From positions 1 through 38,409 of the forward strand of contig JAPPHT010000079.1 in assembly GCA_028874795.1 (NCBI GenBank): DNA of 38,409 bases, read 5' to 3'. Each line of letters begins with the position of its first letter. The first letter of the stretch is position 1. The stretch is from Chloroflexota bacterium. GTDB lineage: Bacteria; Chloroflexota; Dehalococcoidia; Lucifugimonadales; Australimonadaceae. The position numbers and the translations under genes are program-made. Of the stretch, positions 1,228-38,378 are shown piece by piece. The notes beneath the pieces are model-generated. The model ran no database searches and had not been told where the DNA came from. It saw only the letters and a program-made list of their open reading frames with translations.

Positions 1228-1244
1228 GGTGATGTCCTCCATAG

Positions 1245-14268: not shown

Positions 14269-14287
14269 GGTTCCCCCGCTTTCAGGC

Positions 14288-14321: not shown

Positions 14322-14322
14322 T

Positions 14323-14394: not shown

Positions 14395-14684
14395 CTGAGG
14401 GACGAGAGAAGGGCATCAGGCCAGCGTGTCTGCACCACGCGGCTCCTATAGGGAGCTCTGCGTATGGCAGACCGAAATCTACATACGGCATGATGGCCGT
14501 AGGCGAAGGAGTAGAGGAATGATTGCAGGTGGGAAGCTCACGTTGAAGGTGGCGACGCCTCCAGGCGTCTACGAGAACATGCCCCGCGACCCGGGTTTGC
14601 CTTGCAATCCTGGTTGCGGGCAGGCACATCCCGGTCAGGAAACAGACTACGCGAACTCCCGCATACGGATAGGAGGACGGACCG
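14395..14684 (+). other. Long leader before the MBL gene
   Basis: About 290 nt between the micro-frame and the MBL start. It holds weak hairpins (GCTCC with GGAGC near 14442-14456; GACGCC-TCCA-GGCGTC at 14554-14569). A frame from 14426 overlapping the MBL start is not convincing. No known riboswitch was recognised. Confidence 0.35.
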
Positions 14685-15806
14685 ATGGCTAAGTTGACCT
14701 TCTTCCCCCTCGGCAACGCCGACTGCTGCCGCATAGACCTGGACAACGGCAACAAGCTGTTGTTCGACTATGCGGCAACCCGCGACCCCTCGGACAAGAA
14801 CGACCTCCGGATCGACCTGCCCAAGGAGCTACGGAGCGACCTACAGGCAGCTAAACGCAACCACTACGAGGTTGTCGCGTTCACGCATCTGGACAAGGAC
14901 CACTACGGTGGCGCCTCGGAGTTCTTCTACTTTGAGCATGCGCAGAAGTACCAAGGCGGCGACCGTGTACGCATAGAGACGCTCTGGGTGCCCGCAGCGG
15001 TTATTGTCGAGAAGGCACCGGACGAGGATGAAGCCCGGCTCATCCAGAGTGAAGCCCGCTACCGCCTCCAGAAGGGCGCGGGAATCCGCGTCTTCTCGCG
15101 GCCCGATGCGCTCAAGGACTGGTTGAAGGAACATGGCCTGACCGTTCAGGAACGGGCTTTCCTCATCACGGATGCAGGGCAGGTGGTGCCAGAGTTCAAC
15201 ACGAAGGCACACGGCGCCGAGTTCTTCGTCCACTCGCCGTTCGCAAGCCGCAAGGAGGACGGCACCCTCGTTGATCGTAACCGCGACTCCATCGCCATGC
15301 AGGCGACGTTCGTGTGCGGCGGAACCGCAACACGAGTAATCCTGGGCGCCGACCTCGACCACGAGACTTTGTCAGACATCGTGCGCGTCACGAAGGCTAA
15401 GGGAAATCAATCCCGGCTTGCATGGGATGTGTTTAAGCTTCCCCATCACTGCAGCTACCTTTCGCTGGGACCGGAGAAGGGCAAACACAAGACCGAGCCT
15501 GTACCGGAAGTGAAGTGGCTCTACGGGAAGCAGGGTCAGACACGCGGAATCATGGTATCCACCAGCAAACCCATACCGGCTGGCGACGAGATTCAGCCAC
15601 CCCACAAGCAAGCCGCTGAGTACTACCGTGAGGTGGCCAGCGCCATCAGGGGTCAGTTCGTTGTGACCATGGAGCATCCCAGTCGATCCAAACCGGACAA
15701 GCTGGAAATCACGGCCTGTGACGGCGGTGCTACGGTCCTGAAGCGAGTCCCCTCAGCTGCCGTTGTGGCCACCAGGACACCGTCCCCCAGGGCGGGGCGA
15801 GCGTAG
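14685..15806 (+). CDS. Metallo-beta-lactamase-fold hydrolase
   Basis: A 373-residue MBL-fold enzyme. The metal site is H68-L-D70-K-D72-H73 in the style of ComEC/Rec2-type MBL domains, followed by a later acidic ligand in LGADLDHE and a histidine motif LPHHCSY. No signal peptide or membrane segment is visible. AGGAGG 8 nt upstream supports the ATG. It is the first gene of the operon, 6 bp before the E2-E1-JAB gene. MBL proteins beside E2-E1-JAB fusions and polymerase-beta-type nucleotidyltransferases were noted in comparative genomics of prokaryotic ubiquitin-like systems by Iyer, Burroughs and Aravind. The substrate is unknown; a nucleic acid or cyclic nucleotide is plausible. Confidence 0.85.
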   Translation: MAKLTFFPLGNADCCRIDLDNGNKLLFDYAATRDPSDKNDLRIDLPKELRSDLQAAKRNHYEVVAFTHLDKDHYGGASEFFYFEHAQKYQGGDRVRIETLWVPAAVIVEKAPDEDEARLIQSEARYRLQKGAGIRVFSRPDALKDWLKEHGLTVQERAFLITDAGQVVPEFNTKAHGAEFFVHSPFASRKEDGTLVDRNRDSIAMQATFVCGGTATRVILGADLDHETLSDIVRVTKAKGNQSRLAWDVFKLPHHCSYLSLGPEKGKHKTEPVPEVKWLYGKQGQTRGIMVSTSKPIPAGDEIQPPHKQAAEYYREVASAIRGQFVVTMEHPSRSKPDKLEITACDGGATVLKRVPSAAVVATRTPSPRAGRA

Positions 15807-15812
15807 GGCGGC

Positions 15813-21886: not shown

Positions 21887-23017
21887 ATGCTGCGCAACAG
21901 CTACATATCAGAAACAAGGCTCCTCGACACAGCCGCTAAGGAGATAGGCGCACGGCTGCCCCGGCGGTGGCGCTTACTCGACCGCGAGGGCGATGAGGCT
22001 GTGCGATCCCCGCAGGACTCCTCCCGCAGAATCGACGCCATCTGGGAAATCCGAGACCCCGATGGGCTCTCGACTGACATCATCGTGGAGGTCAAGGCGA
22101 CCCCGGTGGAACCCAGGCTCGTCGGCAGCGTGGAGTCCCAGCTGAAGGCACTGTCAGACTTGAGGTGCAGACAAGCAAGCGTCAATCCTGTCTTCATGCT
22201 GGTTTCGACCTACCTGAGCCCCCTAACGAGGGAGCGGCTGGCGAAAGCCGGCATTAGCTATGCCGACTCGACCGGCAACATCAGATTCACCATTGAACGT
22301 CCCGCGGTGTATATCGAGACCCAGGGGGCGGACAGGAACCCCTTCAGGGATGAGCGTCCCCTTCGCTCGCTGAAGGGAGGCCGTGCTGGCCGCGTCGTGA
22401 GAGGCCTCCTCGACTATCAGACGCCCTTCGGAACCCGGGAGCTAGCTGCTGAGACGGCAAGCTCCCCTGCCATGATATCGAGGGTGTGCAGCCTGCTGGA
22501 GGCGGACGAGATTGTCACCAAGGAGAGCCCAAGGGGACGCATCGTCTCGGTAGACTGGGAGACTCTGGCCCGTAGATGGGCAATGGACTACGACTTCACG
22601 GCCTCCAACACCCTCACATCGTGGCTTGAACCTAGGGGAACAGGGGCCCTGTTCGCCCGACTTCGCGAAACGGGACTCCAATACAGCGTGACTGGGTCCT
22701 TTGCGGCGTATCGTCTGGCTCCGTTTGCGGAGCCGCGCCTAGCCTCACTCTACGTTGACGATCCGGAGACTGCAGCACAGTCATTGGGACTGCGCCCGGC
22801 AGATGCCGGAGGCAATGTTCTCCTCGTGCGGCCATTCGACCCCGTGGCGTTCGAGCGCGCTGAACGCGACGACGGCATCACCTACGCCCGCGTAACCCAG
22901 GTCCTACTCGACCTCATGAAGGGGCCTGGGCGAGGTCCGATCGAGGCGGAAGCCCTCTCGGGATGGATGCGGGACAATGAGGACAGATGGAAACTATCGA
23001 TGACCAGCACTACATAG
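21887..23017 (+). CDS. Nuclease-like/winged-helix protein, probable antitoxin or regulator
   Basis: A 376-residue protein. The N-terminal third has a PD-(D/E)xK-like core (RRIDAIWEI, then DIIVEVKATP with the complete ExK). The middle is a winged helix (FGTRELAAETASSPAMISRV, then CSLLEADEIV). The C-terminal part, with SFAAYRLAPFAEPRLASLYV, resembles the sensing region of AbiEi-like antitoxins. It overlaps the nucleotidyltransferase gene by 31 nt. This layout (regulator plus AbiEii/MenT-like enzyme) is that of type IV toxin-antitoxin pairs. Leaderless start from the promoter at 21850. A direct role of the nuclease core is unproven. Confidence 0.7.
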   Translation: MLRNSYISETRLLDTAAKEIGARLPRRWRLLDREGDEAVRSPQDSSRRIDAIWEIRDPDGLSTDIIVEVKATPVEPRLVGSVESQLKALSDLRCRQASVNPVFMLVSTYLSPLTRERLAKAGISYADSTGNIRFTIERPAVYIETQGADRNPFRDERPLRSLKGGRAGRVVRGLLDYQTPFGTRELAAETASSPAMISRVCSLLEADEIVTKESPRGRIVSVDWETLARRWAMDYDFTASNTLTSWLEPRGTGALFARLRETGLQYSVTGSFAAYRLAPFAEPRLASLYVDDPETAAQSLGLRPADAGGNVLLVRPFDPVAFERAERDDGITYARVTQVLLDLMKGPGRGPIEAEALSGWMRDNEDRWKLSMTSTT

Positions 23018-23811
23018 ATGCTCGCGAGACGCTGCTCGACTCCGTCGAGGCGCTGGGACCCCACAGCGATGCGGTCATTCTGGTAGGCGCCCAAGCGATT
23101 TACGTGCAGGTAGAGGGCGAGGATGACAGCATCGCCGTCGCCCAGTTTACCTATGACGCAGACCTCGCGCTCGATCCCGACCTGCTGGGGGATAGTCCTA
23201 CGTTAGTCGACGCCATGGGCCGTGCGGGATTCCTGCTGTATGACCAACCGGGCCTGTACAGGAGAGAAAGTGGGGCGCAGGTCGACCTGCTGGTGCCGCA
23301 GGCGGTGGGCGGGCCTGGCCGAAGGGCTGCCCGGCTTGGCGTCCATGGCAACAGGGCGGCCATGAAGGTTCATGGACTCGAAGGCGCTCTTGTCAGCCAT
23401 AAGCTGACGAAGGTCAGCTCACTAGTTCCGGGTGCAGACCGCTCATGCTTGCTGAAAGTGGCTGGGCCGGCCGCGCTGCTGGTGGCGAAAGTACACAAGA
23501 TCGGGGAACGTCTCCAGGACCCCGATCTACGTCGTCGGGACCAACTCCCCAAGGACGCCTTCGATATCTACAGGCTCCTTCGTGCCATTGACACTGCCGA
23601 GATGGTAGAGGAGTTCAGGATCCTGCAGGCGCACGAGATATCAAGCCCGGTGACCTCCGAGGCATTGTCAATGTTCCAACGCCTGTTCAGCACCCCGTCC
23701 GGCATGGGCACGGAGCTGGTAGTCAGGGCTGTCCCCTCCACCGAGGACCTGGATTTCATCGCCGCGTCGAGCGTCGCTCTCAGCCAGGACTTGCTGGAGG
23801 CGACCACGTAG
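22987..23811 (+). CDS. AbiEii/MenT-like nucleotidyltransferase, probable toxin
   Basis: A 274-residue nucleotidyltransferase-fold protein. VILVGAQAIYVQ is the glycine strand, TYDADLAL holds the paired acids, and a later K-rich segment (SHKLTKVSS, VAKVHKIGERL) and KDAFDIYRLL match the family pattern. AbiEii/MenT enzymes block growth by adding nucleotides to tRNA or other targets. Its ATG lies inside the end of the preceding gene, with GAGG about 4 nt upstream, so translation is coupled. Toxicity is inferred from gene order. Confidence 0.72.
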   Translation: METIDDQHYIDARETLLDSVEALGPHSDAVILVGAQAIYVQVEGEDDSIAVAQFTYDADLALDPDLLGDSPTLVDAMGRAGFLLYDQPGLYRRESGAQVDLLVPQAVGGPGRRAARLGVHGNRAAMKVHGLEGALVSHKLTKVSSLVPGADRSCLLKVAGPAALLVAKVHKIGERLQDPDLRRRDQLPKDAFDIYRLLRAIDTAEMVEEFRILQAHEISSPVTSEALSMFQRLFSTPSGMGTELVVRAVPSTEDLDFIAASSVALSQDLLEATT

Positions 23812-24540: not shown

Positions 24541-24766
24541 GAGTGCGCAATGCGGCTGCAGCCGGAGAGGCGGATAAGGGGAAAGGCTTGAAGCACACGA
24601 AGGTCGGAAGACCTGACGCCGGAAAACCAATCCAGGCGGTTGGCAGCGTCCGGAATGCCGCCCACTCCAAAGCGACAGGACTTTCCGGTCTGGGAGGTTC
24701 ACACACGATTAGCACACTAGGTGAGTTGGAGTCAGTGGACCATGAGACTCGTACATGAGGCCATCG

Positions 24767-25573
24767 ATGGAGCATGAGACCACACGGCAGGTTGAATCCT
24801 GCTTGCCGCAGCCACTTACACGCCGCAACGCGGATGGTCAGGTCTACCAGCGCCTGGCGGTTGTGGACAGGCAGATCGAAGAGGCCCTTGGGCTGAACGA
24901 CGAAGAGCTTCGAAGCCGACTGGCAGTTCGTGACGAAGAGTCGCCCATTTATCTAAAGGAGGAGTCGCTGGCTTATCTGATACGGCACCACCACGCAGCG
25001 GGAAATCGAAAATGCGTCAATGACCTGACTGAGTGCCTGCTGAAGCGTTGTGCGACCTGGATAAACGGCAAGTTGAGGGGCTTGAGAACGGACCTGAGGG
25101 AAGATGGGTATGCAGCAGTCGTCGCGGAGATATTCGCCCGGATGCTGGACATGGCTAGCGACCGCGGGGACTTTCTTCAAGTCCGCTTCTGGAAGGGCAT
25201 CGAGAGAATCACGGTGGATGTCTTTCGGAAGCAAATCAGGCAGTTCGATACTGAGTCCAGCGGTGACTACGACCAAGTGACCATCGACGAACTAACTCAG
25301 CAGGGCGCCGTGGTGGTGCCGGCTGCTTCCGGTGATCGCAACGTCGCATCGGAGGCGATCGATAACGTCTTGATTGAAGCGGCGCTGAATCAGCTGGAGG
25401 AGCCCATCCGGTCCGCATACCTGCTCCGCCACCTCGAGGACTGGCCAATCGAAGACAAAGACCCAGCTGTACAGACGATCAGCAGACACTTTGGCAAGAC
25501 GCCTCGAACGATCAGAAACTGGCTGTCCAAAGCTGATGAGATTCTGGAGGCATGGCGAGGAGAACAGAGATGA
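24767..25573 (+). CDS. Sigma-factor-like protein
   Basis: A 268-residue protein. The N-terminal 70 residues are unassigned. A helical region follows (LLKRCATWINGKLRGL..DGYAAVVAEIFARMLD...FWKGIERITVDVFRK) resembling sigma region 2 of ECF-type factors. The C-terminal HTH (LNQLEEPIRSAYLLRH, then ISRHFGKTPRTIRNWLSKAD) resembles region 4. GAGG 6 nt before the ATG at 24767 favours it over the ATG at 24755. It overlaps the next gene by 4 nt. It probably directs RNA polymerase to the downstream IrrE-UvrD and Bil genes; that target is inferred. Confidence 0.7.
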   Translation: MEHETTRQVESCLPQPLTRRNADGQVYQRLAVVDRQIEEALGLNDEELRSRLAVRDEESPIYLKEESLAYLIRHHHAAGNRKCVNDLTECLLKRCATWINGKLRGLRTDLREDGYAAVVAEIFARMLDMASDRGDFLQVRFWKGIERITVDVFRKQIRQFDTESSGDYDQVTIDELTQQGAVVVPAASGDRNVASEAIDNVLIEAALNQLEEPIRSAYLLRHLEDWPIEDKDPAVQTISRHFGKTPRTIRNWLSKADEILEAWRGEQR

Positions 25574-26214
25574 ACAGACCAATGGACAGAGGAATGCTGG
25601 AGGACGTACTTGACGCCTTCGTGGCGTCCGGCGTCGGCCCAAATAGCCCGCTTGAAGAATGGACTCGGCGGTACCCGCAGTTCGAGCGAGAGATCATCGA
25701 GTTCGCAGCCAGTTGGAGCCTGATGAAGTGGTTGCCTCCCGCAGCCAACGCGGAGGAAGTCACCGAAGAAACGCTTGTGCTTCGAGGCATGAGTGTTGTC
25801 CAGAACATACTTCACGGGCAATCGACGGAGTCTGCCTCAGATCCCGCGGTGCCTTTCGAGAGTCTGATAGCAGAAGGGCAAGCAATGGGTCTGGAGCCGA
25901 GCCGGCTGGCGCATGCTGTTGGATTGGGGGACAGCCTACTCAGAAAGCTTGACCGCCGCTTGATCGCCTGGGCCACCATCCCGGAAGAGCTGATTGATCG
26001 CCTTGCCCAAGCAGTTGAACGCGAGGCAACGAACATCAGGGCCTACTTACAGCTGGACCCGATACTGGCGGCTAGGACCGAGCATCGCTCCGAGCAAGCG
26101 CCGAAGCTCATGGCGCAGGAGGACTTCTTCGACGCGGTTCGCGTTGACCCGACAATCGACCTCGAACACGCTGAACACTGGTATGCGCTTGAACGGTCCA
26201 CGGGGGAACCGTGA
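25570..26214 (+). CDS. Anti-sigma/HTH-like partner protein
   Basis: A 214-residue protein of no certain family. The N-terminal part (LEEWTRRYPQFEREIIEFAA) is like the sequence that anti-sigma and kinase-linked regulators carry. The C-terminal part (AMGLEPSRLAHAVGLGDSLL, then RKLDRRLI, then IPEELIDRLAQ) is an XRE-like helix-turn-helix pattern. The ATG overlaps the sigma-like stop and is preceded by GGAG; its own end overlaps the IrrE-UvrD start by 4 nt. The tight coupling suggests a sigma regulator that is itself the target of the IrrE domain downstream. This is a hypothesis. Confidence 0.55.
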   Translation: MNRPMDRGMLEDVLDAFVASGVGPNSPLEEWTRRYPQFEREIIEFAASWSLMKWLPPAANAEEVTEETLVLRGMSVVQNILHGQSTESASDPAVPFESLIAEGQAMGLEPSRLAHAVGLGDSLLRKLDRRLIAWATIPEELIDRLAQAVEREATNIRAYLQLDPILAARTEHRSEQAPKLMAQEDFFDAVRVDPTIDLEHAEHWYALERSTGEP

Positions 26215-29200
26215 GCCACTGGGACGAAATAAGGAGGCTGGCACGGACACAGCGCACTGCGGCGCTTCGAGAAGCAGGGGGAGAGCCCTCAGCTGAATCA
26301 ATGCTCGCTGCGGCAGAGCGGCTGACTGGCTTCGAAAGAATCGGCCTGGCCGCCAGTGACTCGTTGCTGGACGGCGCCGATGCGGCGCTCGACCACGTCA
26401 TGAAGAGGGTGTGGTTCAACCGCGAAGTCGAACCCAGGCTGGCTCGCTTCTATCATGCTCACGAGTATGCCCACTTGTGGTTGCACCCTGAACGGGAGAG
26501 CCAGCCAGAGTTCAACCTGGATCCCGAGGCCATTGAGGAACCCTTGCCGGTTGGCGTGAATCGGGTTGAGGGTTATGGGCCGGAGGAACTGAGGGAGCGT
26601 GAGGCGAATGTCTTTGCACGGGAGTTCTTGCTCCCAACTGACTTCCTGCGTGCGTTGTACGATGCCGATAAGGCTAGCGCGAGCGACGTCGCAGGGAGGC
26701 TGGGACTCCCCGAATCGCTTGTTCTACAACAGATGGCACGGGCGCTGCTCACGCCGGAAATCCGTCCTGCTGACGTATCAACTGGCGGAACGGACGAACG
26801 TCCCATGGACCCCAGCCAGCAGGACGCTGCTCACGCACCGCGAGGGCCATTGCTCCTGGAAGCCGGTCCGGGGACTGGGAAGACCCGCACCCTGGTGGGC
26901 CGGATCGTGTTTCTCCTTGAACAAGGGGTGCCTCCAACAGCCATCCTTGCGCTGACGTTCTCGAACCGCGCGGCCGAGGAGCTGCGGTCACGCGTGGCAG
27001 AGGCCAGACCGGAGGATGCGCCCCGCATCTGGATCGGGACCTTTCATGCCTTTGGTCTGGAGTTGCTGCGCAGGTACAGCTCTCACGTAGGACTCCCAGC
27101 CCGGGTAAGCGTGCTGGATCCGTCCGATTCTATCGCCTTGATGGAGGGGATGGTCTCAGACTTGGAGCTGGACCACTATCAGAATTTGTATGACCCCGCG
27201 CTCTACCTGCGTGACATCATGTCGGCAATATCCCGGGCGAAGGACGAGCTCGTAGGGCCACAAGAGTATGCCGAGCTCGGCGAGAACATGCTTGCTCAGG
27301 CCACTACGCCTGACGAGACAGAGGCGGCCGAGAAAGCTGTCGAGGTTGCGCGCGTCTACAAGACGTATCAGGATGCCCTTGACCGAGAGCATCTACTCGA
27401 CTTCGGGGACCTCATCTACAAGTCAGTGACGCTGCTCAGGACGCACGTCGAAGTACGGGACACGCTGCGGAGCACGTATCGCCACGTTCTGGTCGATGAG
27501 TACCAGGACGTGAACCGTGCGAGTGGGCTCTTCCTTAAAGAGTTGGCCGGTGCGGGCGCAGGTCTGTGGGTGGTAGGGGATACACGTCAGGCAATATACC
27601 GGTTCCGCGGCGCCGCCCCGGCCAATATGCGGCGATTCGGCGAGGACTTCCCCGGGGCAAAGCTAAAGTCTCTCAGATACAACTACAGGTCCCAACCAGC
27701 TATTGTGGATGTCTTCGCAGGGCTGGCACCCAGTATGCGTGCAAGCCAGGGCGGCCCAGGGTTCGTCCGTTGGGAGCCGAAGCGTCCTGATTCTGGTGGT
27801 CAGGTCTTGATGGAGGTTGCCGACGACCTTGCCGCTGAGGCGGCCGGAGTGGCTACGGAGATTGAGCGTCAGCGGGCCTCGGGCATCCCTTACACTCAGC
27901 AAGCGATTCTTTGTCGTTCCCATACCAACCTTGGAAGAGTCGCAGCCGAACTCGAAGGGTTGGGCGTGCCGGTTCTCTACCTGGGTGACCTCTTCGAGCG
28001 TCCGGAAATCCGAGACATGCTGTCCCTCTTGTCCTTCGCCTGCGAACCTGATGGGCGCGGTCTAGTTCGATTGGCGCGGTTTCCCGAGTACGACGTCCCA
28101 CTCGATGATGTTCTCGCGCTGCTCGAACTGGCAAAGGAACGGAACGTCCCCTTCCCGGACGCCTTGGTTCTGGCTGCGACGGCAGCGACGATCTCGCCAG
28201 AGGGTAGAGAAGGCCTTGCTCTGCTGGGACGCCATGTGGATGGGATGAGGCATGTCGGACCCTGGACGCTGCTCACGTACTACCTGTTCGAGAGAAGCCG
28301 CTATCTGGACACCCTCTTGGGCGATCCGTCCGTGGCGGGGCAACACCGCTTGCTGGCACTGTATCAATTCCTCCAGTTCGTCCACGAACAGCGACCGGCT
28401 GCTCCTGGGGAGGCGACTGACGCCAAGCTCCGTCTCTTGCGGTACGTGCGCCGACTTGAGATATACGGAGACGAGAAGCAACTCCGGCATCTGCCGACCT
28501 GGGCGGACGACATCGATGCAGTGCGACTCCTGACCGTGCATGCGAGCAAGGGACTGGAATTTCAGGCCGTCTACTTGCCGTTTCTGGGCAGAGGTCTGTT
28601 CCCGGCCCGACGTCAAGCACAGCCTTGTCCTCCTCCCGAGGGTATGATCGTATCTGCCAGTGATGACCACGACGAAGAAGAGGAGTGCCTCTTCTTCGTC
28701 GGGCTATCCCGTGCGAGAGATTTCCTGTGCCTTTCGCGAGCTCGCAGGTACGGAGCGCAGAACAGCCATGCGTCAGATCTGCTCGACAACATGGCAGGCC
28801 TGTTGCCTAGGGCTCCGTCCGGCGCTGTCACTTGGGTATCCACGCCCACTGCTCCGGTTTTCGTAGCAGACCCCACGCCGGCAAGCGAGCCCTTCGCCGC
28901 TGAAGATCTGGATGTCTACATTCGTTGCCCACGTCAGTACTACTACGAGAGCGTCCTCGGGTTGAATCGGAGACGCGAGGATTCCGGGTACGTCGAGTTT
29001 CACCGCTGCGTCTATCGTGTGTTGCGCTGGATGGCGGAGGAACGCGCCTCTGGCAATCCCGTGGATGAAACGGCCGCGCTCGCTTACCTGGCAGAAGTCT
29101 GGCAGGAGCAAGGGCCAGAAGAGCACCCGTACAAGGAGTTGTATCGCGCGTCGGCCGTTGATTTGGTGGAGATGGCTGCGAGGCGCCCATACACGTCTCA

Positions 29201-29603
29201 AGGGTCCGCAACAAGGCCAACGTGGGAAGTGTCAGTGCCACATGGCCTGATTCGATTCACTCCCGATCACGTCGAGGTCCTCAGCGATGGCTCCGAGGTC
29301 GTTGAACGTCTCCGCACGGGTCGTCCGACGAAGAGCGAGGTAGGAAAGGACATTTATGCTCTGTACGTGACGGCGGCCCGGTCGGCTGAGCCACGCGTTC
29401 GACGGCGCGTACAGGTGCGCTACCTGTCGGCCGATCAGGTAGACCCGGTCGACCCACGACCCGGACCCATCAAGACTCGCCTGGACCGTTACAACGAAGC
29501 CATCAAAGGCATCCTGCGCGAGGATTTCTCACCCCAGCCTAGCGACCGCATCTGTCCCCGCTGTCCTCACTACTTCGTCTGCCCGGTGGGCCAGGACGCG
29601 TAA
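26211..29603 (+). CDS. IrrE peptidase-UvrD helicase-FeS nuclease fusion
   Basis: A 1130-residue three-part protein. Residues 1-190 form an ImmA/IrrE-type zinc peptidase with H84-E-Y-A-H88 and EREANVFAREFLLP as third-ligand helix. From about 200, a UvrD/Rep SF1 helicase: Walker A GPGTGKT (219-225), GTFHAFG, VDEYQDVN as motif II, GDTRQAIYRFRGA, and HASKGLEFQAV. The C-terminus has an AddB/Cas4-like nuclease module: one Cys in YIRCPRQYYY and three in CPRCPHYFVC, the pattern of a 4Fe-4S cage. Between them lies FTPDHVEVL...VVERLRTGR, where the usual catalytic lysine seems replaced, so cutting is uncertain. The start is GTG, overlapping the previous stop. No Walker residues are missing. It could process DNA ends and proteolyse a regulator on sensing damage. 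Confidence 0.85.
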   Translation: MSHWDEIRRLARTQRTAALREAGGEPSAESMLAAAERLTGFERIGLAASDSLLDGADAALDHVMKRVWFNREVEPRLARFYHAHEYAHLWLHPERESQPEFNLDPEAIEEPLPVGVNRVEGYGPEELREREANVFAREFLLPTDFLRALYDADKASASDVAGRLGLPESLVLQQMARALLTPEIRPADVSTGGTDERPMDPSQQDAAHAPRGPLLLEAGPGTGKTRTLVGRIVFLLEQGVPPTAILALTFSNRAAEELRSRVAEARPEDAPRIWIGTFHAFGLELLRRYSSHVGLPARVSVLDPSDSIALMEGMVSDLELDHYQNLYDPALYLRDIMSAISRAKDELVGPQEYAELGENMLAQATTPDETEAAEKAVEVARVYKTYQDALDREHLLDFGDLIYKSVTLLRTHVEVRDTLRSTYRHVLVDEYQDVNRASGLFLKELAGAGAGLWVVGDTRQAIYRFRGAAPANMRRFGEDFPGAKLKSLRYNYRSQPAIVDVFAGLAPSMRASQGGPGFVRWEPKRPDSGGQVLMEVADDLAAEAAGVATEIERQRASGIPYTQQAILCRSHTNLGRVAAELEGLGVPVLYLGDLFERPEIRDMLSLLSFACEPDGRGLVRLARFPEYDVPLDDVLALLELAKERNVPFPDALVLAATAATISPEGREGLALLGRHVDGMRHVGPWTLLTYYLFERSRYLDTLLGDPSVAGQHRLLALYQFLQFVHEQRPAAPGEATDAKLRLLRYVRRLEIYGDEKQLRHLPTWADDIDAVRLLTVHASKGLEFQAVYLPFLGRGLFPARRQAQPCPPPEGMIVSASDDHDEEEECLFFVGLSRARDFLCLSRARRYGAQNSHASDLLDNMAGLLPRAPSGAVTWVSTPTAPVFVADPTPASEPFAAEDLDVYIRCPRQYYYESVLGLNRRREDSGYVEFHRCVYRVLRWMAEERASGNPVDETAALAYLAEVWQEQGPEEHPYKELYRASAVDLVEMAARRPYTSQGSATRPTWEVSVPHGLIRFTPDHVEVLSDGSEVVERLRTGRPTKSEVGKDIYALYVTAARSAEPRVRRRVQVRYLSADQVDPVDPRPGPIKTRLDRYNEAIKGILREDFSPQPSDRICPRCPHYFVCPVGQDA

Positions 29604-29694
29604 AGGTCACTGCCGCCGGCCCGGCCATTTCCGGTCTGTCCCTTCTTCTCCGATTGTCCTAGTAAGGGCATCAAACGACGCCCACTCCAGAGAG

Positions 29695-29710
29695 TCCCAC
29701 TGCTGTGGGA
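29695..29710 (+). promoter_or_regulatory. Hairpin before the Ubl gene
   Basis: A 6-bp stem TCCCAC-TGCT-GTGGGA directly upstream of the GAAAGGA ribosome site of the gene at 29725, in the only gap (121 bp) of the 24767-32829 gene run. It may set the expression ratio between helicase and Bil genes. There is no T-tract and no convincing promoter in the gap. Confidence 0.4.
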
Positions 29711-29724
29711 GAAAGGACAGTCGA

Positions 29725-30246
29725 ATGACTCAGCTCAATGCGCCCGACCAGATTGAGATCTTCATCCAGGGAGAGGGAATCCCGAAGATCACCCTTGTGA
29801 AACTCGGCCCGAAGGACACGGTGGCGGATATCGTCAAGATAGCCCGCGAACATGGCCTGAGCGCGCCTGAGGACACAGAGGTGTGCGTCTTCATCGAGAA
29901 CACCGACGTCACCCTGGAACTGGACGTGAAGATCGATGAGGCCGGCCTCACTCCCCGCAGCCGGGTGCACATACACCGCTGCAAGAGCGTCGAGGTCACG
30001 GTCAACTACAACCAGGACCAGAAGAAGGGGTTCTTCGCCCCATCGGCAACGGTTGACCGGGTGAAGGAATGGGCGACCGGGAAGGACCAGTACAACCTGT
30101 CGCCCGTTGACGCCGCAGAGCATGTGCTCAAGGTGTGCAACTCAGGCGACCAGCCTGACGAAGAGGTGCATATCGGCACGCTCGTGAAGTTCCCCGACGG
30201 GACCCTCTGCTTTGACCTGGTTGCCAAGCAGCGGGTCGAGGGTTAG
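29725..30246 (+). CDS. bilA: Tandem ubiquitin-like protein (BilA-like)
   Basis: A 173-residue modifier with two beta-grasp domains: residues 7-86 (IEIFIQGEG ... LGPKDTVADIVKIA ... SRVHIHRC) and 88-173 (VEVTVNYN ... SATVDRVKEWA ... FDLVAKQRVEG). Like ISG15 and the BilA of bacterial ISG15-like operons it carries a double Ubl. It ends in a single glycine (RVEG), exposed in the primary product, so the JAB enzyme is not needed for maturation. AGGA precedes the ATG. It is the first gene of a Ubl-E2-JAB-E1 operon in the published BilABCD order. Bil systems attach the Ubl to phage structural proteins and impair virions. Confidence 0.85.
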   Translation: MTQLNAPDQIEIFIQGEGIPKITLVKLGPKDTVADIVKIAREHGLSAPEDTEVCVFIENTDVTLELDVKIDEAGLTPRSRVHIHRCKSVEVTVNYNQDQKKGFFAPSATVDRVKEWATGKDQYNLSPVDAAEHVLKVCNSGDQPDEEVHIGTLVKFPDGTLCFDLVAKQRVEG

Positions 30247-30249
30247 GGC

Positions 30250-30738
30250 TTGTCCGCGCAGACAATGGGAGTGGACGAGCAGGTGTTTCGGGCCCACCTC
30301 GAAGCCGGACCGTTCCAGAGTGGCTTCGACCGCGGCCGGTGGCGCCTGCTCTCCATAAACTGGCCCCACGCCGTAATCGCTGTCCAGGCGGCTGACAGGG
30401 AGGGCGGTCCAACTGAGTATGCGCTGCGCTTCGAGTGCACGAACTACCCTCAGTCGCCCCCAACAGCTCAGCCATGGGATGCTGATGGAGATGCCCCGCT
30501 GCCACCAGAGCGCTGGCCAAGTGGAACGAAACGGGTATCCAAGGCCTTCAATCCTGGATGGAACAACGGTCAGTGCCTCTATCTGCCTTGTGACCGCCTC
30601 TCGATCGACGGCCACGACGGGTGGCGGACCCAGTTCCCCTGGATGATCTGGTCACCAGAAAGCGATATCACACACTACCTGAGGATTGTCCATGACCTTC
30701 TCAATTCCAGCGACTATTCGGGCCCTCGCGGCGCCTAA
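30250..30738 (+). CDS. bilB: E2-like conjugating enzyme (BilB-like)
   Basis: A 162-residue UBC-fold protein: ALRFECTNYPQSPPTAQPWD is the central strand and YP motif, and GQC109LYLPC114DR holds the probable catalytic cysteine (Cys109 favoured), followed by WMIWSPESDITHYLRIVHDLL as the C-terminal helix. The start is TTG at 30250 with GAGGG 7 nt upstream, inside the end of the Ubl gene; ATG 30265 is an alternative with poorer spacing. It receives the Ubl from the E1 and passes it to a target. It overlaps the JAB gene by 47 nt. Confidence 0.82.
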   Translation: MSAQTMGVDEQVFRAHLEAGPFQSGFDRGRWRLLSINWPHAVIAVQAADREGGPTEYALRFECTNYPQSPPTAQPWDADGDAPLPPERWPSGTKRVSKAFNPGWNNGQCLYLPCDRLSIDGHDGWRTQFPWMIWSPESDITHYLRIVHDLLNSSDYSGPRGA

Positions 30739-31216
30739 GCACCGACTGAGGTGCCCCAGGGGAGTTTGGCGGCAGGGACTTACAGAGGTCGCCAGACGCG
30801 GAGGAGGACGCCACGAAAGTGGCGCGTTCCTGCTCGGCTACAGAGATGGCCTGCGTGGTCATGTGGTGAGATTCGCGTACTACGACGATTTCGACCCAGC
30901 CTGCCTTGACTCCGGCATTGTGGTCTTTGATGGAGCGGCTTTCGGACCGTTGTGGCAGCTCTGCCGGGAGACCGGTCTAAGGGTGCTCGCCGATTTGCAC
31001 ACGCACGGCGGCTCCGGACCGGCGCGGCAGAGCCCGCTTGACAGGGACAACCCGATGATCGCGCAGGCCGGTCACGTGGCGCTGATCGTGCCGAACTTCG
31101 CGATTGGCTTCAGGATGCGGGACGTGGGCGTCTACGAGTATCTCGGCGGTCACAGGTGGCGCAATCACAGCACGGTCGGCTTGGGACGATTCTTCTATAC
31201 AGGAGTATGGGCATGA
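30692..31216 (+). CDS. bilC: JAB/MPN isopeptidase (BilC-like)
   Basis: A 174-residue JAMM-type zinc enzyme with E42 in HESGAFLLGY, H103-T-H105 in LADLHTHGG, and S114..D117 (QSPLD), the full metal-site set. It would remove the Ubl from conjugates or adducts. ATG at 30692 is favoured over TTG 30686 because GAGG lies 7 nt upstream. It overlaps the E2 gene by 47 nt and the E1 gene by 4 nt (ATGA). Confidence 0.85.
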   Translation: MTFSIPATIRALAAPKHRLRCPRGVWRQGLTEVARRGGGRHESGAFLLGYRDGLRGHVVRFAYYDDFDPACLDSGIVVFDGAAFGPLWQLCRETGLRVLADLHTHGGSGPARQSPLDRDNPMIAQAGHVALIVPNFAIGFRMRDVGVYEYLGGHRWRNHSTVGLGRFFYTGVWA

Positions 31217-32628
31217 CAAAGAACGCAGTCATAGGACCAGATGAGTTGCACAGACACCTCAAGCTCGTCCTAGATACGGGAGAGGCGGGAAGCCTCGAAG
31301 AGGCACGGCGCCTCTTCGACAGCTATCGACTCGGCATCGTGGTGGGGGGCAGCGTCGCCCACTCACCAACGATGCAGGCAGCGGTGCTGACAGCGGTAAA
31401 CACAGGCCGTCGCAGCTTTCTGGGCGGAGTGAGTGTCGAGGGTACGCTTGATGTGCCCCTGTTGGTCCCCTGGGGACGTTGCCGCATCCTGCGGGAAGCT
31501 ATTGTAGATCTAGGAGGGGTCATTGCTGACTGCGCTCCTGGCATTCCGCGCATCGTGATGGGGGGTAAGTCCCCGCCGCCTACGGATGCTGATTTCGCTG
31601 TGCGCGCGACGTTTGATGGCTGGCGTGCGGGCGTTGCACCTCTGCATCAAGGTCTTCAACTCCCGGAGCGGCAAGAGTGCATTCCGGCAGGAGTTCTCGC
31701 GGGAGCACTCGGGGTTTCAGAGGCATTCCAGTTCGTGCGCGGCGATAACGCCGTGGCTGGGCGACGAGATGTTGGACTGTCGCTGTGGCAGCCGGATAAG
31801 GCCATCAACTGGCTAGACGCTGGTGAGTTGGGACCCAAACTAGAACGACTGCCGGCAAATGCCTGGATTATCGGGCTCGGCCACCTGGGCCAAGCGTTTC
31901 TTTGGACACTCGGTCTCCTGCCCTATGAGTCCCCTGAGGAGGTCAACCTCGTACTCCAGGATTTTGATGAGCTCGTCGAGGCCAATGACAGCACCTCGCT
32001 CCTCACAACGCGGGCGATCCTGGGGGCGAAGAAGACGCGAGCGATGGCGGCTTGGTGTGAACTACGCGGGTTCTGCACTTCCATAGTGGAGCGGAAATTC
32101 GCGGGCGACTTTGTGGTTGCAGGGGATGAGCCACGTGTTGCCCTGTGTGGCGTAGACAATGCTCTTGCCCGAGCGGACCTCGAAGATGTTGGGTTTGACC
32201 GCGTCATTGAAGCTGGCCTGGGTGCCGGCACCCAGGAATACCTCGCATTTCAGACCCACACGTTCCCGGCCAGCCGAACAGCAAGGCATCGCTGGGGGAC
32301 GGAAGGACACCGGCCCGATGCGGATGCCGTGGCCGAGAATCCCGCCTACCGTTCACTAGCTCAAGACGGGGTCGACGATTGTGGAATCATCACGTTGGCT
32401 GGCCGCACCGTTGGTGCGTCATTTGTGGGTGCAGTCACGGCGGCAGTGGTCATCGCCGAGCTCATAAGGCTGGGATTGGGCGGACCTCGATACGAGCTTG
32501 TAGATGGGAGCCTACGCTCGCTTGAGCTGCGCCAGGCGGTGGTGTGTAGTGATGGTCCGCCATTCAACCCAGGTACGACAGCCGCTACGCTGGAGCCTGG
32601 CCCATCAACGGCCTACATGAGTAGATGA
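31213..32628 (+). CDS. bilD: E1-like activating enzyme (BilD-like)
   Basis: A 471-residue ThiF-type enzyme. The first 200 residues are a family-specific N-terminal domain. The Rossmann adenylation domain starts at AWIIGLGHLGQAFL (217-230), with LQDFD.LVEAN for ATP and acidic contacts. VDDC390GIITLAGRTVG gives the likely thioester cysteine. It adenylates the terminal Gly of the Ubl and hands it to the E2. The ATG at 31213, overlapping the JAB stop and with AGGAG 7 nt upstream, is preferred to earlier in-frame ATGs. It completes the four-gene Bil set. Confidence 0.85.
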   Translation: MTKNAVIGPDELHRHLKLVLDTGEAGSLEEARRLFDSYRLGIVVGGSVAHSPTMQAAVLTAVNTGRRSFLGGVSVEGTLDVPLLVPWGRCRILREAIVDLGGVIADCAPGIPRIVMGGKSPPPTDADFAVRATFDGWRAGVAPLHQGLQLPERQECIPAGVLAGALGVSEAFQFVRGDNAVAGRRDVGLSLWQPDKAINWLDAGELGPKLERLPANAWIIGLGHLGQAFLWTLGLLPYESPEEVNLVLQDFDELVEANDSTSLLTTRAILGAKKTRAMAAWCELRGFCTSIVERKFAGDFVVAGDEPRVALCGVDNALARADLEDVGFDRVIEAGLGAGTQEYLAFQTHTFPASRTARHRWGTEGHRPDADAVAENPAYRSLAQDGVDDCGIITLAGRTVGASFVGAVTAAVVIAELIRLGLGGPRYELVDGSLRSLELRQAVVCSDGPPFNPGTTAATLEPGPSTAYMSR

Positions 32629-32928: not shown

Positions 32929-33284
32929 CTAGTACAAGATCAGGGTCTTGGGGGCCAGCTGCTGTTCGATGTGGTCCACCTCCAGGGCCACACAATCAAG
33001 GCTGTATGTCCCCGGCAGGACCGGGGAATCGTCCTCTCCGAATACCACCTGGGTGATCTCGCTCTTGCCGTCTATCGAAACCCAGGCCTGGCCATAGTCC
33101 AGATCGATCCCCCGCCCACCGGCTTATGGGACCTGCGTTTGCCCCTCGGCTCTATTCCCAGGCTGCGCAACAGGCCAACGGGCAACGTGGTGTAGAAGGC
33201 ACCGGTGCCCACGACCACCTCGATGTCCTGTCTCTGGCGACCGTCCATGCCGGAAATCCGCAGCGGCCGCTTGAATGTCCCTAT
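32929..33284 (-). pseudogene. Dead retropepsin-like aspartyl protease
   Basis: The minus strand encodes a clan AA (retroviral-type) protease in two frames. Upstream is RISGMDGRQRQDIEVVVGTG with AFYTTLPVGLLRSLGIEPRG; after a shift comes IDLDYGQAWVSIDGKSEITQ, then VVFGEDDSPVLPGTYSLD to a TAG. Three defects are visible: the catalytic Asp of the V-D-T-G-A motif is Gly; the frame changes near 33105-33140; and the likely start is ATA (33282-33284) after a good GAAGAGG ribosome site. The intact ancestor would be about 118 residues. It lies between the Bil operon and the right-hand recombinase. Confidence 0.72.
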
Positions 33285-33389
33285 CGCGGAAGCCTCTTCT
33301 CGGCAATTTCCACCACCACATTTGTCGCATCCCAAGAGCCTGTTAGGCGGAATGGCTGCACGGGAACCGTTCCATGGGCTGCCGTGACC
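33285..33389. other. Upstream region of the right-hand recombinase
   Basis: About 100 bp with no gene. It contains a short palindrome GGAAC-C-GTTCC (33363-33373), a possible operator. No RHH partner gene or clear promoter was found, unlike the left-hand copy. Confidence 0.3.
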
Positions 33390-33410
33390 GAACAGCACGA
33401 ACAGTGGAAG
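33390..33410 (+). repeat. 21-nt direct repeat, copy 2
   Basis: Identical to 19808-19828. It encodes EQHEQWK in frame with the recombinase that follows, from a GTG at 33384, and so may be the remains of the 5' end of another gene fused to the recombinase upstream region. Confidence 0.8.
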
Positions 33411-33419
33411 GAACCCAAG

Positions 33420-34976
33420 ATGAGTAAAAGACCCGAACCCACACCGGTGGCCCTCTACGCCAGGGTCTCCAGCGATCGCCAGGACGTGGACCTGTCGGTC
33501 GCAGCCCAGTTGCGGGCGCTGAGGGACCACGCCGAGAAGAATGGCCAGGTGGTCGTCCGTGAGTACGTCGACGAGGCCGAGAGCGGCTGGGTCGACGACC
33601 GGCCCCAGTTCAACAAGATGATTGAGGAAGCCAGATCTCCCGATGCCGCATTCCGGGAGATACTGGTCTGGAAGTTCTCACGGTTCACCAGGAAGCGCGA
33701 GCACGCCGTCGCCTATAAGTCCATGCTCCGCAGGCGCGGCGTCAGGGTCGTCTCCATAACTGAGAACGCCGACGACACTCCAGCTGGCAAACTCCTTGAA
33801 GGAATCATCGAGAGCGTCGACGAATTCTATTCGGAGAATCTGGCGCAAGAGGTCCGGCGTGGGATGCGGGAGGCCGCTTCCCGGGGTTTCTGGGTCGCCA
33901 GCAGGACACCCTACGGCTACAACAGGATCATGGTGCAGGACGGTGCCAAGAAGCGGCCCAAGCTGGAACCCGATGAGGAAACGGCCTATGTCGTCAAACG
34001 GATCTTCGAGCTGGCCGACACCGGAAAAGGGATGCTGGACATTGCCCGCACACTCAACAACGAGGGCATCTCCAGCGCCACCGGAAAGCTCTGGACCGGT
34101 AACGCGGTCCGCTTCATCCTCGCCAACGAGGTGTACACCGGGACCCTGGTCTGGGGCAACGCCGCCAGGGACGAGGCCGAGCCTGTTCGAGTCGATAGGG
34201 CGTTCTCGCCCCTAATCTCCAAGGCTCTGTTCCGCCGGGTGAACGCCAGGATGCGCTCCCGCGCGCCCAAGACCATCCATCCCCGTAGGGTGGGAAGTTC
34301 CTACATGTTCAGCGGGCTCGTCAAGTGCTACAGATGCAACACATTGCTTTCGGGCCAGGACGCCAAGAGCGGCAGGTTTCACTACTACGTCTGTCAAACC
34401 CTGATCAAGCGTGGGAGCGGTGGCTGCGACACCCCCCGGCTCAACGCCCGCCGCTTCGAGGAGCTGATCGTCAGGAGGATTCGCTCTAGCATCCTAACCG
34501 AGGGCATCATTGGCGATCTGCCAAAGGCCGTTGCCAAAGAGCTGGATGGCCTGGTCCGCGAACAACGTGGGAGACTGGAGACCATCGAGTCTGAACTGGC
34601 TGACGTGCGGCGCCGGCTAGGCCGGCTCTGGGACGTTGTGGAGACCACCGACGACGTCCCGGCTGACATGGATATCCGGATCAAGGCCAACACTGAGAGG
34701 CGGAGCCTTCTTGAGGCATCGTTGGAGGAGGCTCAGTCCATCCTTTCCCAGCGCAGGTCGGTCAAGTCCGACCTGGAGGCCATCGTTGCACGGGCGCAGG
34801 ACATGGGCGAGTTTCTAGGGGAGAGCGAGTTGTCCGAGCGCAAGGCCTTTGCCGAAACCTTCATTAAGGAGCTCGTAGTATTGCCAGGCAGAGCCGTCGT
34901 CTACTACACCGTGCCAATGGCTAACAACATTCATAATTCCAGATCTGACTCCGAGGAATTGCTGCTGGGCGGCTGA
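33420..34976 (+). CDS. Large serine recombinase, full length
   Basis: A 518-residue serine recombinase. The resolvase domain (1-150) has YARVSSDRQ with Ser17. A recombinase domain follows, with YGYNRIMVQDGAKKRPKLEP and NEGISSATGKLWTGNAVRFI. The zinc ribbon is CYRC...YYVC...GCDTP, then a C-terminal coiled-coil region of about 120 residues and a beta tail ending in LLLGG. AAGGA 7 nt upstream supports ATG 33420; GTG 33384 in the same frame is an alternative. It is a close paralogue of the recombinase at 37-1227 but complete. It points right, away from the island, as the left copy points left. No RHH gene precedes it. The 111 bp after it, up to the convergent NTPase gene, show no att core that can be recognised. 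Confidence 0.92.
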   Translation: MSKRPEPTPVALYARVSSDRQDVDLSVAAQLRALRDHAEKNGQVVVREYVDEAESGWVDDRPQFNKMIEEARSPDAAFREILVWKFSRFTRKREHAVAYKSMLRRRGVRVVSITENADDTPAGKLLEGIIESVDEFYSENLAQEVRRGMREAASRGFWVASRTPYGYNRIMVQDGAKKRPKLEPDEETAYVVKRIFELADTGKGMLDIARTLNNEGISSATGKLWTGNAVRFILANEVYTGTLVWGNAARDEAEPVRVDRAFSPLISKALFRRVNARMRSRAPKTIHPRRVGSSYMFSGLVKCYRCNTLLSGQDAKSGRFHYYVCQTLIKRGSGGCDTPRLNARRFEELIVRRIRSSILTEGIIGDLPKAVAKELDGLVREQRGRLETIESELADVRRRLGRLWDVVETTDDVPADMDIRIKANTERRSLLEASLEEAQSILSQRRSVKSDLEAIVARAQDMGEFLGESELSERKAFAETFIKELVVLPGRAVVYYTVPMANNIHNSRSDSEELLLGG

Positions 34977-35087: not shown

Positions 35088-38000
35088 CTACTCGCTAGCA
35101 CTTGGCATGTCTTCAGACCGAGCGTCCGATTCTGACTCAGGATCCTCGGGTTCAATGCCTAGGATCGCTCCGATTCTCTTCAGATCGGCCAGTGTCGGTT
35201 CATCCTCTTCAGTATCATCGATGCGTTGTCGGATACGGTCCTTGAAATCGCCAGCAGCAGCCGGGTCAATATTGCTGGTAAACAGCGAAGCATCTGCCTC
35301 CGCGAGGCCAGCCATCCATGCGATGCCACTTTCATTGTCTGCCTCCAGGATGGGCCTGCACACTTGGTCGATGAATCTCTGGTCGCTGGCCAGAATGCTT
35401 GCGCCAGATAGTATGTCACCAAATAGGGCAAAGAACTCTTCGCTTGCTTCGCCGCCCGAGTTCTTTAGTATTTCGTATGCTCGTCTGTGAAAGAGCTCTC
35501 GGTGGTCAGCGTCCAGCAATGTGAAGAGGTCTGACCAAGATTCGTTCGTGATCGCACTCACCGAGCCATCTGAGACCTGCTCCGCATAATCGAGGAGAGC
35601 ATCGTAGTAGGTGGTGCCGAGTACCATATTGACTCCACGCCCCTTCAATTCCATGACAAGGTCCAAGAGATCTCCTTGCGATGTGAGTGCCTCCGACCAG
35701 GCATCCCTACTGACCGACGATAGTCCATCTACACACCAGGCCACGAAATCCGTACTTGTCGAGCTTCTCAGGAGAGCGAGATAGAGAGCACTATCCTGGA
35801 CATCGAAGGTCTCGCCGAGTATGCCAGCAACGAGGTTATCTATTCCTGGCAAGTCTTTCAGGAAAGCTTCGAAACTCTCCGAGCTTTCCTCGCCTTCCCC
35901 TAGTACTTCTCGTATCACGGCCCAGTTCTCACTCACAAGATCGGGAGGCTTTGGAACATCATTGGAGGTAAGTAGCGTATGCAGAACTTTTACCACGAAC
36001 GGAGGAATTGTCCCATCCTCGGAAGTCATCTTGAATACCGCTGGGAGACTCTGGGTTCCCTTCGCAAGGGATGCAAAGCGTTCCGCGGAGCCGGGCACAC
36101 GGTCCGGATCTTGCAGGAGTTCGTTGAGGTACTGGTATCCCGCACCGGAATTCCCGATGTGACTGGGCTCTCGTCCATCGGGAATAGCTTGCAAGAAGCC
36201 GAACATGCACTCTGACACAGCTTCCATATGGTTTTCTGAGACCGCTTGGTACAAGTGATGAAGGTAGTGACCCCTCTCTGCAAAACCCGCAAAGTCATCC
36301 TGGCTAATCAAGCCCGCCTGGCGAGCAACACGAAGTGTCTTCACCAGGGGCACGAACTGATCGCCGGGGAACGATTCACCAGATTGGAGGCGGGAGGACA
36401 CTTGGCCGGCTACGGAGTTCATGGCGTTCCCGGATCTGGTCGCCATCGCCGCATAGACCGGGTTGAAGGTGTTCTCGTCCAGTTGATTGTTGGCGATCTG
36501 CTGAGTCAGCTGCTCGTCAATTTCTTGAACGGCCCGAAGTTCAAAGTACTGCAGCAGACGACCGCTAGGGTCCTTCTCCATTACCTCATGTGACACCTCG
36601 ACCCACTGTTCCGCACTAAGTGGAACCTCAAGGCCCTGCTCCAGATGTTCACCTGAGCCAAGCTGCACAAGGCCTTCAACTAGGGTGAAGGCAGAAGACA
36701 TCCAAACCTCAGGCGACACGCCCCCTTCCTGCCGTTCTCCCGTTGAAGGCCCGACACGTGCATTTGAGGCTCCCGCGAGAAGAGCCGGGAACACCTCCTC
36801 CGGGTTACCCACGAGATGTCCCACCCTAGCCATCCCTTGGGCAGTCTCCGCATCAAATGGAGCCCAAGCTTCGACTGCTACTGCCGCCGCCCGAATAGTC
36901 GCCCGAAGTGCTTCCGATTCAGGCTGACTGTGGGAACGATCAAAGAGTTGGCTGTCTGCAAGAGCAGCGGCTGACTTCGCTAGGTCAGCTGGAGCAAGGC
37001 TGTCCCAATCACTCGCCCCCGCAGGCACAGTGTCTTCTAGGACGGACCAGAAGCCCGCACCGTGAATCGACTCGAGCTCCGACAGGGCTTTCCCATCACC
37101 TTCCGCAAGAGCAGTCTGGATCGGGATTCTCAAGAGTAGTTGTCGTGCCACCTCCACGGGCTTTCCAAAGTGAAGCGCCGCAATGATGCCTCTCCAATCG
37201 TGTCCAATGATCCTACTGAGCAGATCAATGTCTTCATTAGAAAGAAGGGCCTTACGCACATCCTCGCAATCCCTCTGAAAGAGTACATAGCAAGCAAGAT
37301 GGGAGAGCGGGAACTCGTCTTGCCATTCCCTGTGGAGAGCCCCTACTTGGTTGACAAGAGTCTTGAGGTCGCGAGGAGTGGGTGCTGACGTATCGGGCCC
37401 GCCCTTGGTAGCAAAGGCACGGAACACGCCATGATAGTCCTCTTCTGGGTGATCCGGAAATGCTTGCTGAAGAGCCTCTTTGAGGAACTCGCGCCAGTTC
37501 GAAAGCAGGAGTGGAGGAACTCTGAATCTTAACTGGAAGGTCTTGTCCAGAAAGGATGTGGCCAGCTTTGAGTTGGCACTAGGGCCAGACCCGTCCCACA
37601 GACGCAGTATGGCCTTGTCGTCGTAAGGAATCAGAATCCACAGTCGATCAATCCAGTCAGGCCGTTGATACTCCTTGTGCCCAAGGAAAGTCTGTAGTGT
37701 CGACCATATCGACAGAGCATCCGACGGTTCAACGCGATCCAGGTTGTCCACGACGATGAGCAGCTTGCGGTCTTCCGCCTCCAAGGCGTCGTCCAGTAGA
37801 TCACGGAATACGGACTCGAACTCAACCGACGTGGGATCTGGGGACTGGGACACCACCGTACGAGACTCGGTTGACGCTTGCCCGGTGACTAAGGCGGGAA
37901 GCTCGCTCAACCAGCCCCCCTCCTCGCTTGTTCTGCCCTTGCGCCTTCTCACCCAGGATCCGACCACCCCTAGGTATCCGTAGCAAATGGCTGGGGCGAG

Positions 38001-38378
38001 TGCCAAAGCTAAACCAAGGCCAATTAGCACGGCTCTCACCGGCCCGGAGACTTCCTTGGAGCCCCAGAGCGAAAGACCAGCACCAAGCAGGGCTGCGCCA
38101 ATAGGAACGGCGAGAAGGGACAAGGCGAACTTGGCTCCCTCAGGAGTCAATCTTGGAACAACTCTGGTTGTTTCCTCGCGACGGCGCTTGGCAAGTTCGT
38201 CAATGCGCCGGTCCCACTGCTCTCTGTCAACCCATCCGAACTCCTGAACTTGCTTGATGAGATTCTCCAGAAAGGTGCGTCGAAGCGGGTCGCCTTGGTG
38301 GGACCACATGTCGAAGACTGCAACCTTGTGTGCGCGTTCCTTCGCCTGCGAGAGCTTAAGGATGCTCTGAATAACCCG
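35088..38378 (-). pseudogene. KAP-type P-loop NTPase lacking its Walker A end
   Basis: The open frame runs from 38378 to 35088 (about 1096 residues). Its first codons read RVIQSILKLSQAKERAHKVA, then VFDMWSHQGDPLRRTFLENL, which are the residues right after Walker A in KAP NTPases. Two transmembrane helices are inserted (near residues 63-85 and 92-118 from the ATG at 38309), as typical of KAP. Walker B is LLIVVDNLDRVEPSDALSIW, and a long helical C-terminal region of about 700 residues follows, ending acidic. A TGA at 38379-38381 stops the frame just where GxWGSGKS should be, and no frame there encodes it. The gene is cut at its 5' end. KAP proteins are membrane-linked and often sit in defence islands. 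Confidence 0.75.

Follow-up and report, generated by a model that had tools for sequence, protein, structure and literature searches.

A window of 38,409 nt from a Chloroflexota bacterium (assembly GCA_028874795.1, contig JAPPHT010000079.1, positions 1-38,409, forward strand), the whole stretch of DNA analysed here, bears on how ubiquitin-like (Ubl) immune operons are silenced and switched on: in it, three overlapping genes precede a BilABCD operon. BilABCD is a known bacterial ISG15-like conjugation system with anti-phage activity. The initial annotation, which overlooked both BilABCD directly downstream and the degenerate catalytic site of a nuclease domain, took the three genes for a possible new defence module. 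We propose instead that this triad is probably an inducible transcription switch for the adjacent Bil or multiubiquitin operon, in which DNA-triggered cleavage would free a sigma factor for two promoters. The identities of the proteins, the order of the genes and their link to UBL operons, together with the promoter-like elements in common and co-evolution, lend computational support to the switch model.

Organization of the locus

The ORF coordinates confirmed three genes in the order sigma factor, regulator and fusion, with a 4-nt overlap at each junction, as first read. The triad and the operon behind it are as follows.

24755..25573, plus strand: sigma-like gene, ORF from ATG (Sigma70_r4_2; AF2 pLDDT 87; structural and PDB profile matches)
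25570..26214, plus strand: middle regulator gene, 214 aa (AF2 pLDDT 85; XRE-like HTH matches)
26211..29603, plus strand: IrrE/M78-UvrD-FeS PD-(D/E)XK fusion gene, 1130 aa, GTG start (Pfam, conserved residues)
29725..30246, plus strand: BilA, ubiquitin-like protein (PADLOC 3.7e-50)
30250..30738, plus strand: BilB, E2-like, Pfam DUF7665 (PADLOC 5.8e-67)
30686..31216, plus strand: BilC, JAB-type protease (PADLOC 1.3e-60)
31156..32628, plus strand: BilD, E1-like (PADLOC 3.1e-168)

The likely start of the sigma-like gene is the ATG at 24767, internal to the 24755 ORF, where a GAGG is better placed; the initial annotation used the same start. bilA begins 121 nt downstream of the triad, and BilA, BilB, BilC and BilD follow in this order.

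The surroundings hold further defence-like genes. Just upstream of the triad region lies a weak AbiEi/AbiEii-like pair (21887-23811, plus strand), a protein with a restriction-like N-terminus plus HTH followed by a nucleotidyltransferase-like protein. A ZacABC system occupies 2066-8336 (minus strand; PADLOC E 4e-296, 6e-160 and 6e-112), and a 1073-aa KAP-family NTPase stands at the island edge (35088-38309, minus strand). Positions 12794-18089 carry another Ubl-type operon, equipped with a protease controller of its own: an HTH_3 gene and a 349-aa protein with WHEIVH form a CapH/CapP-like pair (12794-14268, minus strand), and divergent from it are genes for a putative MBL-like protein, which PADLOC matches weakly, and for an E2_A-ThiF-JAB fusion (14685-18089, plus strand). 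Large serine recombinases near both ends (37-1242, minus strand, and 33126-34976, plus strand) suggest that the island is a mobile element. Among the host's relatives, the triad fusion was absent from the 97 other genomes searched, in which four weaker matches were helicase-only; this is consistent with horizontal acquisition.

Conservation of the triad and its link to Ubl operons

A plasmid search with the 214-aa middle protein alone yielded nine records, in which the protein was encoded between a sigma-like gene and, mostly, a UvrD fusion. The triad was followed by Bil genes in L002, L004 and L006-L008 and by a multiubiquitin-E2-E1 operon in place of Bil in L009; in L005 (Cupriavidus), sigma, middle and Bil genes were present and the fusion was missing. 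When plasmids were searched with the IrrE part or the sigma-like protein as query, the same triad turned up before Bil in Xanthomonas, before multiubiquitin-ThiF-DUF6527 operons in Mesorhizobium, Acinetobacter, the cyanobacterium Leptolyngbya, Klebsiella and Cereibacter, and divergent from a multiubiquitin operon in Robbsia. Scanning the fusion alignment against 84,980 species genomes gave 43 genuine relatives, from Proteobacteria, Acidobacteria, Chloroflexi, Armatimonadota, Planctomycetota and Opitutaceae.

To count UBL adjacency, we took the 40 loci that had been found by the fusion protein alone and had enough downstream sequence. A UBL operon was adjacent in 34 of them (9 Bil and 25 multiubiquitin), and Pfam confirmed Multi_ubiq, Prok-E2_E, ThiF and DUF6527 in the non-Bil operons; none was nearby in 6 of the 40 (L019, L026, L028, L044, L047 and L057). 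The three genes themselves were near-constant neighbours, as the initial annotation required, with sigma and middle genes upstream of the fusion in 37 of 41 assessable loci. Pairwise distances of the sigma, middle and fusion proteins correlated at 0.82-0.84 with each other and at only 0.46-0.54 with those of the E1 protein, so that the triad evolves as a unit and swaps partners.

Some loci depart from the common layout. In one Armatimonadota genome (L057:6562-12648) the triad is followed by a WGR-PARP protein, a possible alternative effector under the same controller. In Methylobacterium (L028:5262-11288) the middle and fusion genes stand beside a DncV-like (CBASS) cyclase, with no sigma or UBL gene detected. 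Divergent from a multiubiquitin operon are the triad of L014:3593-11177, whose sigma scores weakly, and the middle and fusion genes of L052:1442-9030, where no sigma was detected.

In several Bil operons that lack the triad, a different pair lies upstream: an XRE HTH gene and an ImmA/IrrE gene in L161, L163 and L164, and both domains in one protein in L159. Because this CapH+CapP arrangement fills the same slot, the triad occupies the position of a controller.

A predicted ECF-like sigma factor and an XRE-type regulator

The first protein matched Sigma70_r4_2 in Pfam (3e-6), a family recognized in 22 of 34 members, and the sigma4 fold was matched with a Z of about 10. The sigma2 fold (core binding and -10 recognition) was recognized by structure only, Pfam giving no sigma2 match to this protein. 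Sigma2 spans about residues 66-168 and sigma4 about residues 198-272; in the AF2 model (pLDDT 87), residues 65-272 align to sigmaE, SigH, SigL, SigK, AlgU and others. Sigma factors fill the top ranks of the structure search, and a profile search of PDB sequences matched SigL/FliA/SigH. On the basis of the model, we predict an ECF-like sigma factor with sigma2 and sigma4, and these structural matches, together with the promoter pair described below, agree with the initial reading of the first protein as a sigma factor.

No Pfam family matched the middle protein of the window, and some of its homologues matched HTH_31 (8e-8) or HTH_3. In its AF2 model (pLDDT 85), an N-terminal domain of helices is followed by an XRE domain with five helices (residues 95-164) and by a C-terminal tail. 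The nearest structures to the XRE domain are 3kxa and CapH (7t5u, Z 7.5, rmsd 2.1 over 63 residues), and SinR, P22 c2, ImmR and DdrO match as well, all with moderate Z values; CapH, ImmR and DdrO are all IrrE-type substrates. This XRE HTH resembling known IrrE/CapP substrates fits the regulator originally assumed. The N-terminal domain had no significant homology to the class I (zinc-type) anti-sigma profile (hhalign P 0.44): 'YPxFxxEL' was aligned to 'CPxCRxEL', with YP on CP, but not significantly. From gene order and the logic of the circuit, we infer that the middle protein binds the sigma factor.

Promoter-like elements shared by the triad and the Ubl operon

Two bipartite elements resembling promoters flank the triad.

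24682..24710, plus strand: promoter element 1, TTTCCGGT-N16-CGATT, upstream of the sigma gene (autoregulation predicted); one of two genome-wide matches
29628..29655, plus strand: promoter element 2, TTTCCGGT-N15-CGATT, upstream of bilA; the other of the two genome-wide matches

In the 3.33-Mb host genome, the pattern TTTCCGGT-N14..16-CGATT had exactly two matches, one upstream of the sigma gene and one upstream of bilA; the reversed-control pattern had none. Judged from sequence, the operon of the sigma-like gene is headed by a putative bipartite promoter cognate to this factor. In most loci the gap between fusion and UBL operon is 80-120 nt and holds TT(T/A)CCGGT-N15-CGATT or a variant. A weight matrix (PWM) trained on the UBL gaps and applied with leave-one-out ranked the gap first or second over the entire locus in 37 of 44 cases; across both strands of the 38-kb window, the bilA gap was best (23.3), the region upstream of sigma second (19.3) and the next site 11.9. 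We also compared the bilA gap with the sigma upstream region in 17 Bil loci by an alignment-free within-locus test that uses no prior motif, and a shared bipartite element was detected in 10 of them at p<=0.02. The window's own score was borderline in this test (p 0.059), even though both its sites are exact and unique.

The paired elements were identical at 17/17 positions in L003, L023, L025 and L046. In general, pairs were identical or near-identical within a locus and different between clades (for example, ttccgattt..gcgactta in L003, gccttttcg..ggcttgag in L023 and cccattttt..cgcttcac in L046), as predicted for co-evolution with a dedicated sigma factor. Cupriavidus L005, which has lost the fusion, has kept both elements alongside the sigma and middle genes. 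The CapHP-type Bil loci had no such element before bilA, and no clear motif match was found in the divergent loci L014 and L052 or in the Aminobacter locus L162.

In most multiubiquitin loci the motif was not found upstream of sigma; these loci carry the second copy within the sigma coding sequence instead, about 218 nt ahead of the stop codon. Codons counted at the aligned positions of this copy were CGG/CGA in 17/18 (expected 7.1), NCG in 16/17 (expected 5.9) and ATT in 14/16 (expected 3.8, P 2e-8); the P values range from 1e-6 to 2e-8 and are optimistic since the sequences are related. This codon bias indicates that the internal copy in multiubiquitin sigma genes is under nucleotide-level constraint.

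Alternatively, the middle HTH protein could use the element as its operator. That protein would then be a CapH-like repressor on the bipartite element, the sigma-like protein an accessory activator, and the protease would de-repress with no anti-sigma step. The proximity of its HTH to CapH, with SinR, P22 c2, ImmR and DdrO nearby, and the known logic of CapHP and DdrO (PMC13373217, PMC10904395) fit such a repressor, yet we regard it as unlikely: the element is not a palindrome, keeps its spacer strictly at 14-16 nt and resembles the -35/-10 pair of an ECF promoter, unlike dimeric XRE operators; the sigma-like protein possesses both sigma2 and sigma4; and a repressor model does not account for the middle protein's N-terminal domain. 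In the preferred reading, that of a pair of sigma promoters, the sequences support the wiring of both promoters.

The region between the second element and bilA may add a further layer of control.

29656..29724, plus strand: structured 5' leader of bilA (z -3.1), whose first nucleotides GTCCT pair with the Shine-Dalgarno AGGAC

In 36 non-redundant loci, the stretch of transcript between the -10 and the start of the bilA or multiubiquitin gene was structured (mean z -2.6), and the Shine-Dalgarno zone paired with the first 16 nt after the -10 in 21 of them. The sequestering leader is not universal, being absent, for example, in L002, L003 and L049. A transcript that starts within the stem, from the sigma promoter, would escape sequestration; read-through from upstream would not. 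T4 gene e is a precedent for such leader control.

A protease-helicase fusion with a predicted nuclease-dead FeS domain

The third gene encodes three domains.

26397..26729, plus strand: M78/IrrE-like zinc protease domain, HExxH (H84, E85, H88) and E129 (Pfam; invariant in 15 homologues)
26805..28760, plus strand: UvrD/PcrA-like SF1A helicase domain, motifs intact (Pfam, alignment)
28896..29585, plus strand: AdnA/AddB-like FeS PD-(D/E)XK domain, predicted nuclease-dead (Pfam, alignments)

Pfam matches to the fusion were Peptidase_M78 (7.7e-10, residues 63-173), UvrD-helicase (2e-68), UvrD_C (1e-26) and, at the C-terminus, PDDEXK_1 (1.7e-10, residues 896-1125). H84-E85-H88, E129 as the third-ligand Glu, and C906, C1115, C1118 and C1124 were invariant in 15 homologues, the four FeS cysteines of the C-terminal domain were invariant in 32 sequences, and the UvrD helicase motifs were fully conserved in the homologue alignment. 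The zinc peptidase, the helicase and the FeS ligands of the initial annotation were therefore borne out; the active nuclease was not, and we rejected it on account of its replaced catalytic residues. When the fusions were aligned to AdnA, the catalytic Asp and Lys of 'VVDLKTG' were replaced, mostly by Arg, with the Lys kept in a few. Mycobacterial AdnA (6PPJ, 7SJR) was the one solved protein to match the C-terminal domain significantly (E about 2e-10). From these alignments, we predict that the domain binds DNA as a nuclease-dead FeS module and that the motor and protease preceding it are active.

The conserved motor raises the question of whether the fusion is mainly a direct antiviral effector, a helicase acting on phage DNA, with sigma and middle proteins regulating the whole seven-gene cluster. 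GajB and DRT-associated helicases score on the fusion, on its helicase part only, and the fusion is sometimes lost with sigma, middle and Bil retained (L005), both of which would suit an effector. We find this role improbable, since the nuclease is degenerate, an effector needs no N-terminal M78 protease with invariant metal ligands, and the triad is divergent from the UBL operon in L014 and L052, as expected of a control cassette. The GajA OLD nuclease partner expected of Gabija had no match among the genes adjoining the fusion (sigma, middle and Bil).

A model for the proposed switch

At rest, the XRE-HTH middle protein would keep the ECF-like sigma factor inactive and/or block its promoters. 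The fusion would engage abnormal DNA (phage or damage-derived ends, ssDNA) through its UvrD motor and nuclease-dead FeS domain, and this engagement would activate its IrrE/CapP-type zinc protease, which would cut the middle protein. The freed sigma factor would then bring RNA polymerase to the two TTTCCGGT-N15/16-CGATT promoters, that of its own operon, giving positive feedback, and that of bilABCD. A protease that frees a sigma factor, as the initial annotation suggested, is still the most economical design; we infer the trigger, namely DNA as the signal, as well as cleavage of the middle protein and release of the sigma factor. The sensing step is modelled by analogy on PprI/IrrE and CapP: IrrE/PprI is directly activated by ssDNA (PMC10904395), and CapP likewise, as cited in PMC13373217.

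That the triad and Bil are functionally unlinked, passive neighbours in a dense defence island, as the six assessable fusion loci without a UBL operon might hint, is highly implausible given the same order in several phyla, the 34/40 adjacency, the slot shared with CapHP and, above all, the promoter elements common to both operons, which largely refute it. The near-constant UBL neighbour and the matched elements also rule out a stand-alone defence system, so that the defence module first assumed gives way to a regulatory cassette for the Ubl-conjugation immune operons adjoining it.

We see an even chance that the triad represents an unnamed controller class, in which a DNA-sensing, helicase-coupled protease cuts an HTH-bearing anti-sigma and so frees a dedicated sigma factor, the sigma regulon comprises only its own and the Ubl operon, the leader sequesters the Shine-Dalgarno, and the multiubiquitin promoter lies inside the sigma gene. 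If the switch is true, a dedicated sigma factor and a helicase-driven protease would form a further, mechanistically different controller beside the three DNA-damage ones, spread over several phyla and conjugative plasmids. It offers a testable promoter code, one copy of which is hidden in a coding gene, and can serve as a marker in the search for new Ubl systems.

Comparison with known controllers and systems

Three controllers, CapW, CapHP and CapKS, govern the response of Bil, Bub, CBASS and other immune operons to DNA damage (PMC13373217). Of 544 Bub operons, the 2026 CapK/CapS paper assigns about half to these three: CapW or CapHP is present in 219 and CapKS in 59 (PMC13373217). No paper in the literature searched brought IrrE, UvrD, sigma and ubiquitin together; the triad could still be described in the primary papers on Bil, Bub and CapP. 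The class, DNA-responsive transcription controllers of immune operons, is known, and the composition of the triad is new to the literature searched.

The closest likeness is to CapH+CapP. An XRE HTH protein and an M78/IrrE protease, with HExxH and a downstream Glu, are encoded just before an immune operon, in the same Bil slot, and the middle HTH has CapH among its closest structural matches. The triad departs from the stand-alone two-gene architecture in that it adds a sigma factor, its protease is fused to a UvrD helicase and an FeS domain, its HTH protein has an extra N-terminal domain, and a sigma-type promoter pair replaces the repressor operator. IrrE/PprI-DdrO of Deinococcus and ImmA-ImmR of ICEBs1 likewise pair an HExxH protease with an XRE-type regulator, but these are derepression switches without helicase or sigma, whereas the triad probably releases a sigma factor. 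CapK+CapS and CapW/BrxR resemble the triad as interchangeable transcriptional controllers before immune operons such as Bub and CBASS, and CapK+CapS also before Bil; their protein families (kinase/STAS and WYL, respectively) are unrelated to it. With AdnA and AddB-type helicase-nucleases, the fusion shares the UvrD motor and the C-terminal PD-(D/E)XK domain, but it lacks the catalytic Asp/Lys and carries an extra N-terminal protease. Finally, ECF pairs of the sigmaE-RseA type share with the triad sigma2 and sigma4, an overlapping partner gene, an autoregulated promoter and, as proposed here, proteolytic release; in the triad, the partner bears an XRE HTH and the protease would be a soluble, DNA-linked metalloprotease instead of a membrane protease.
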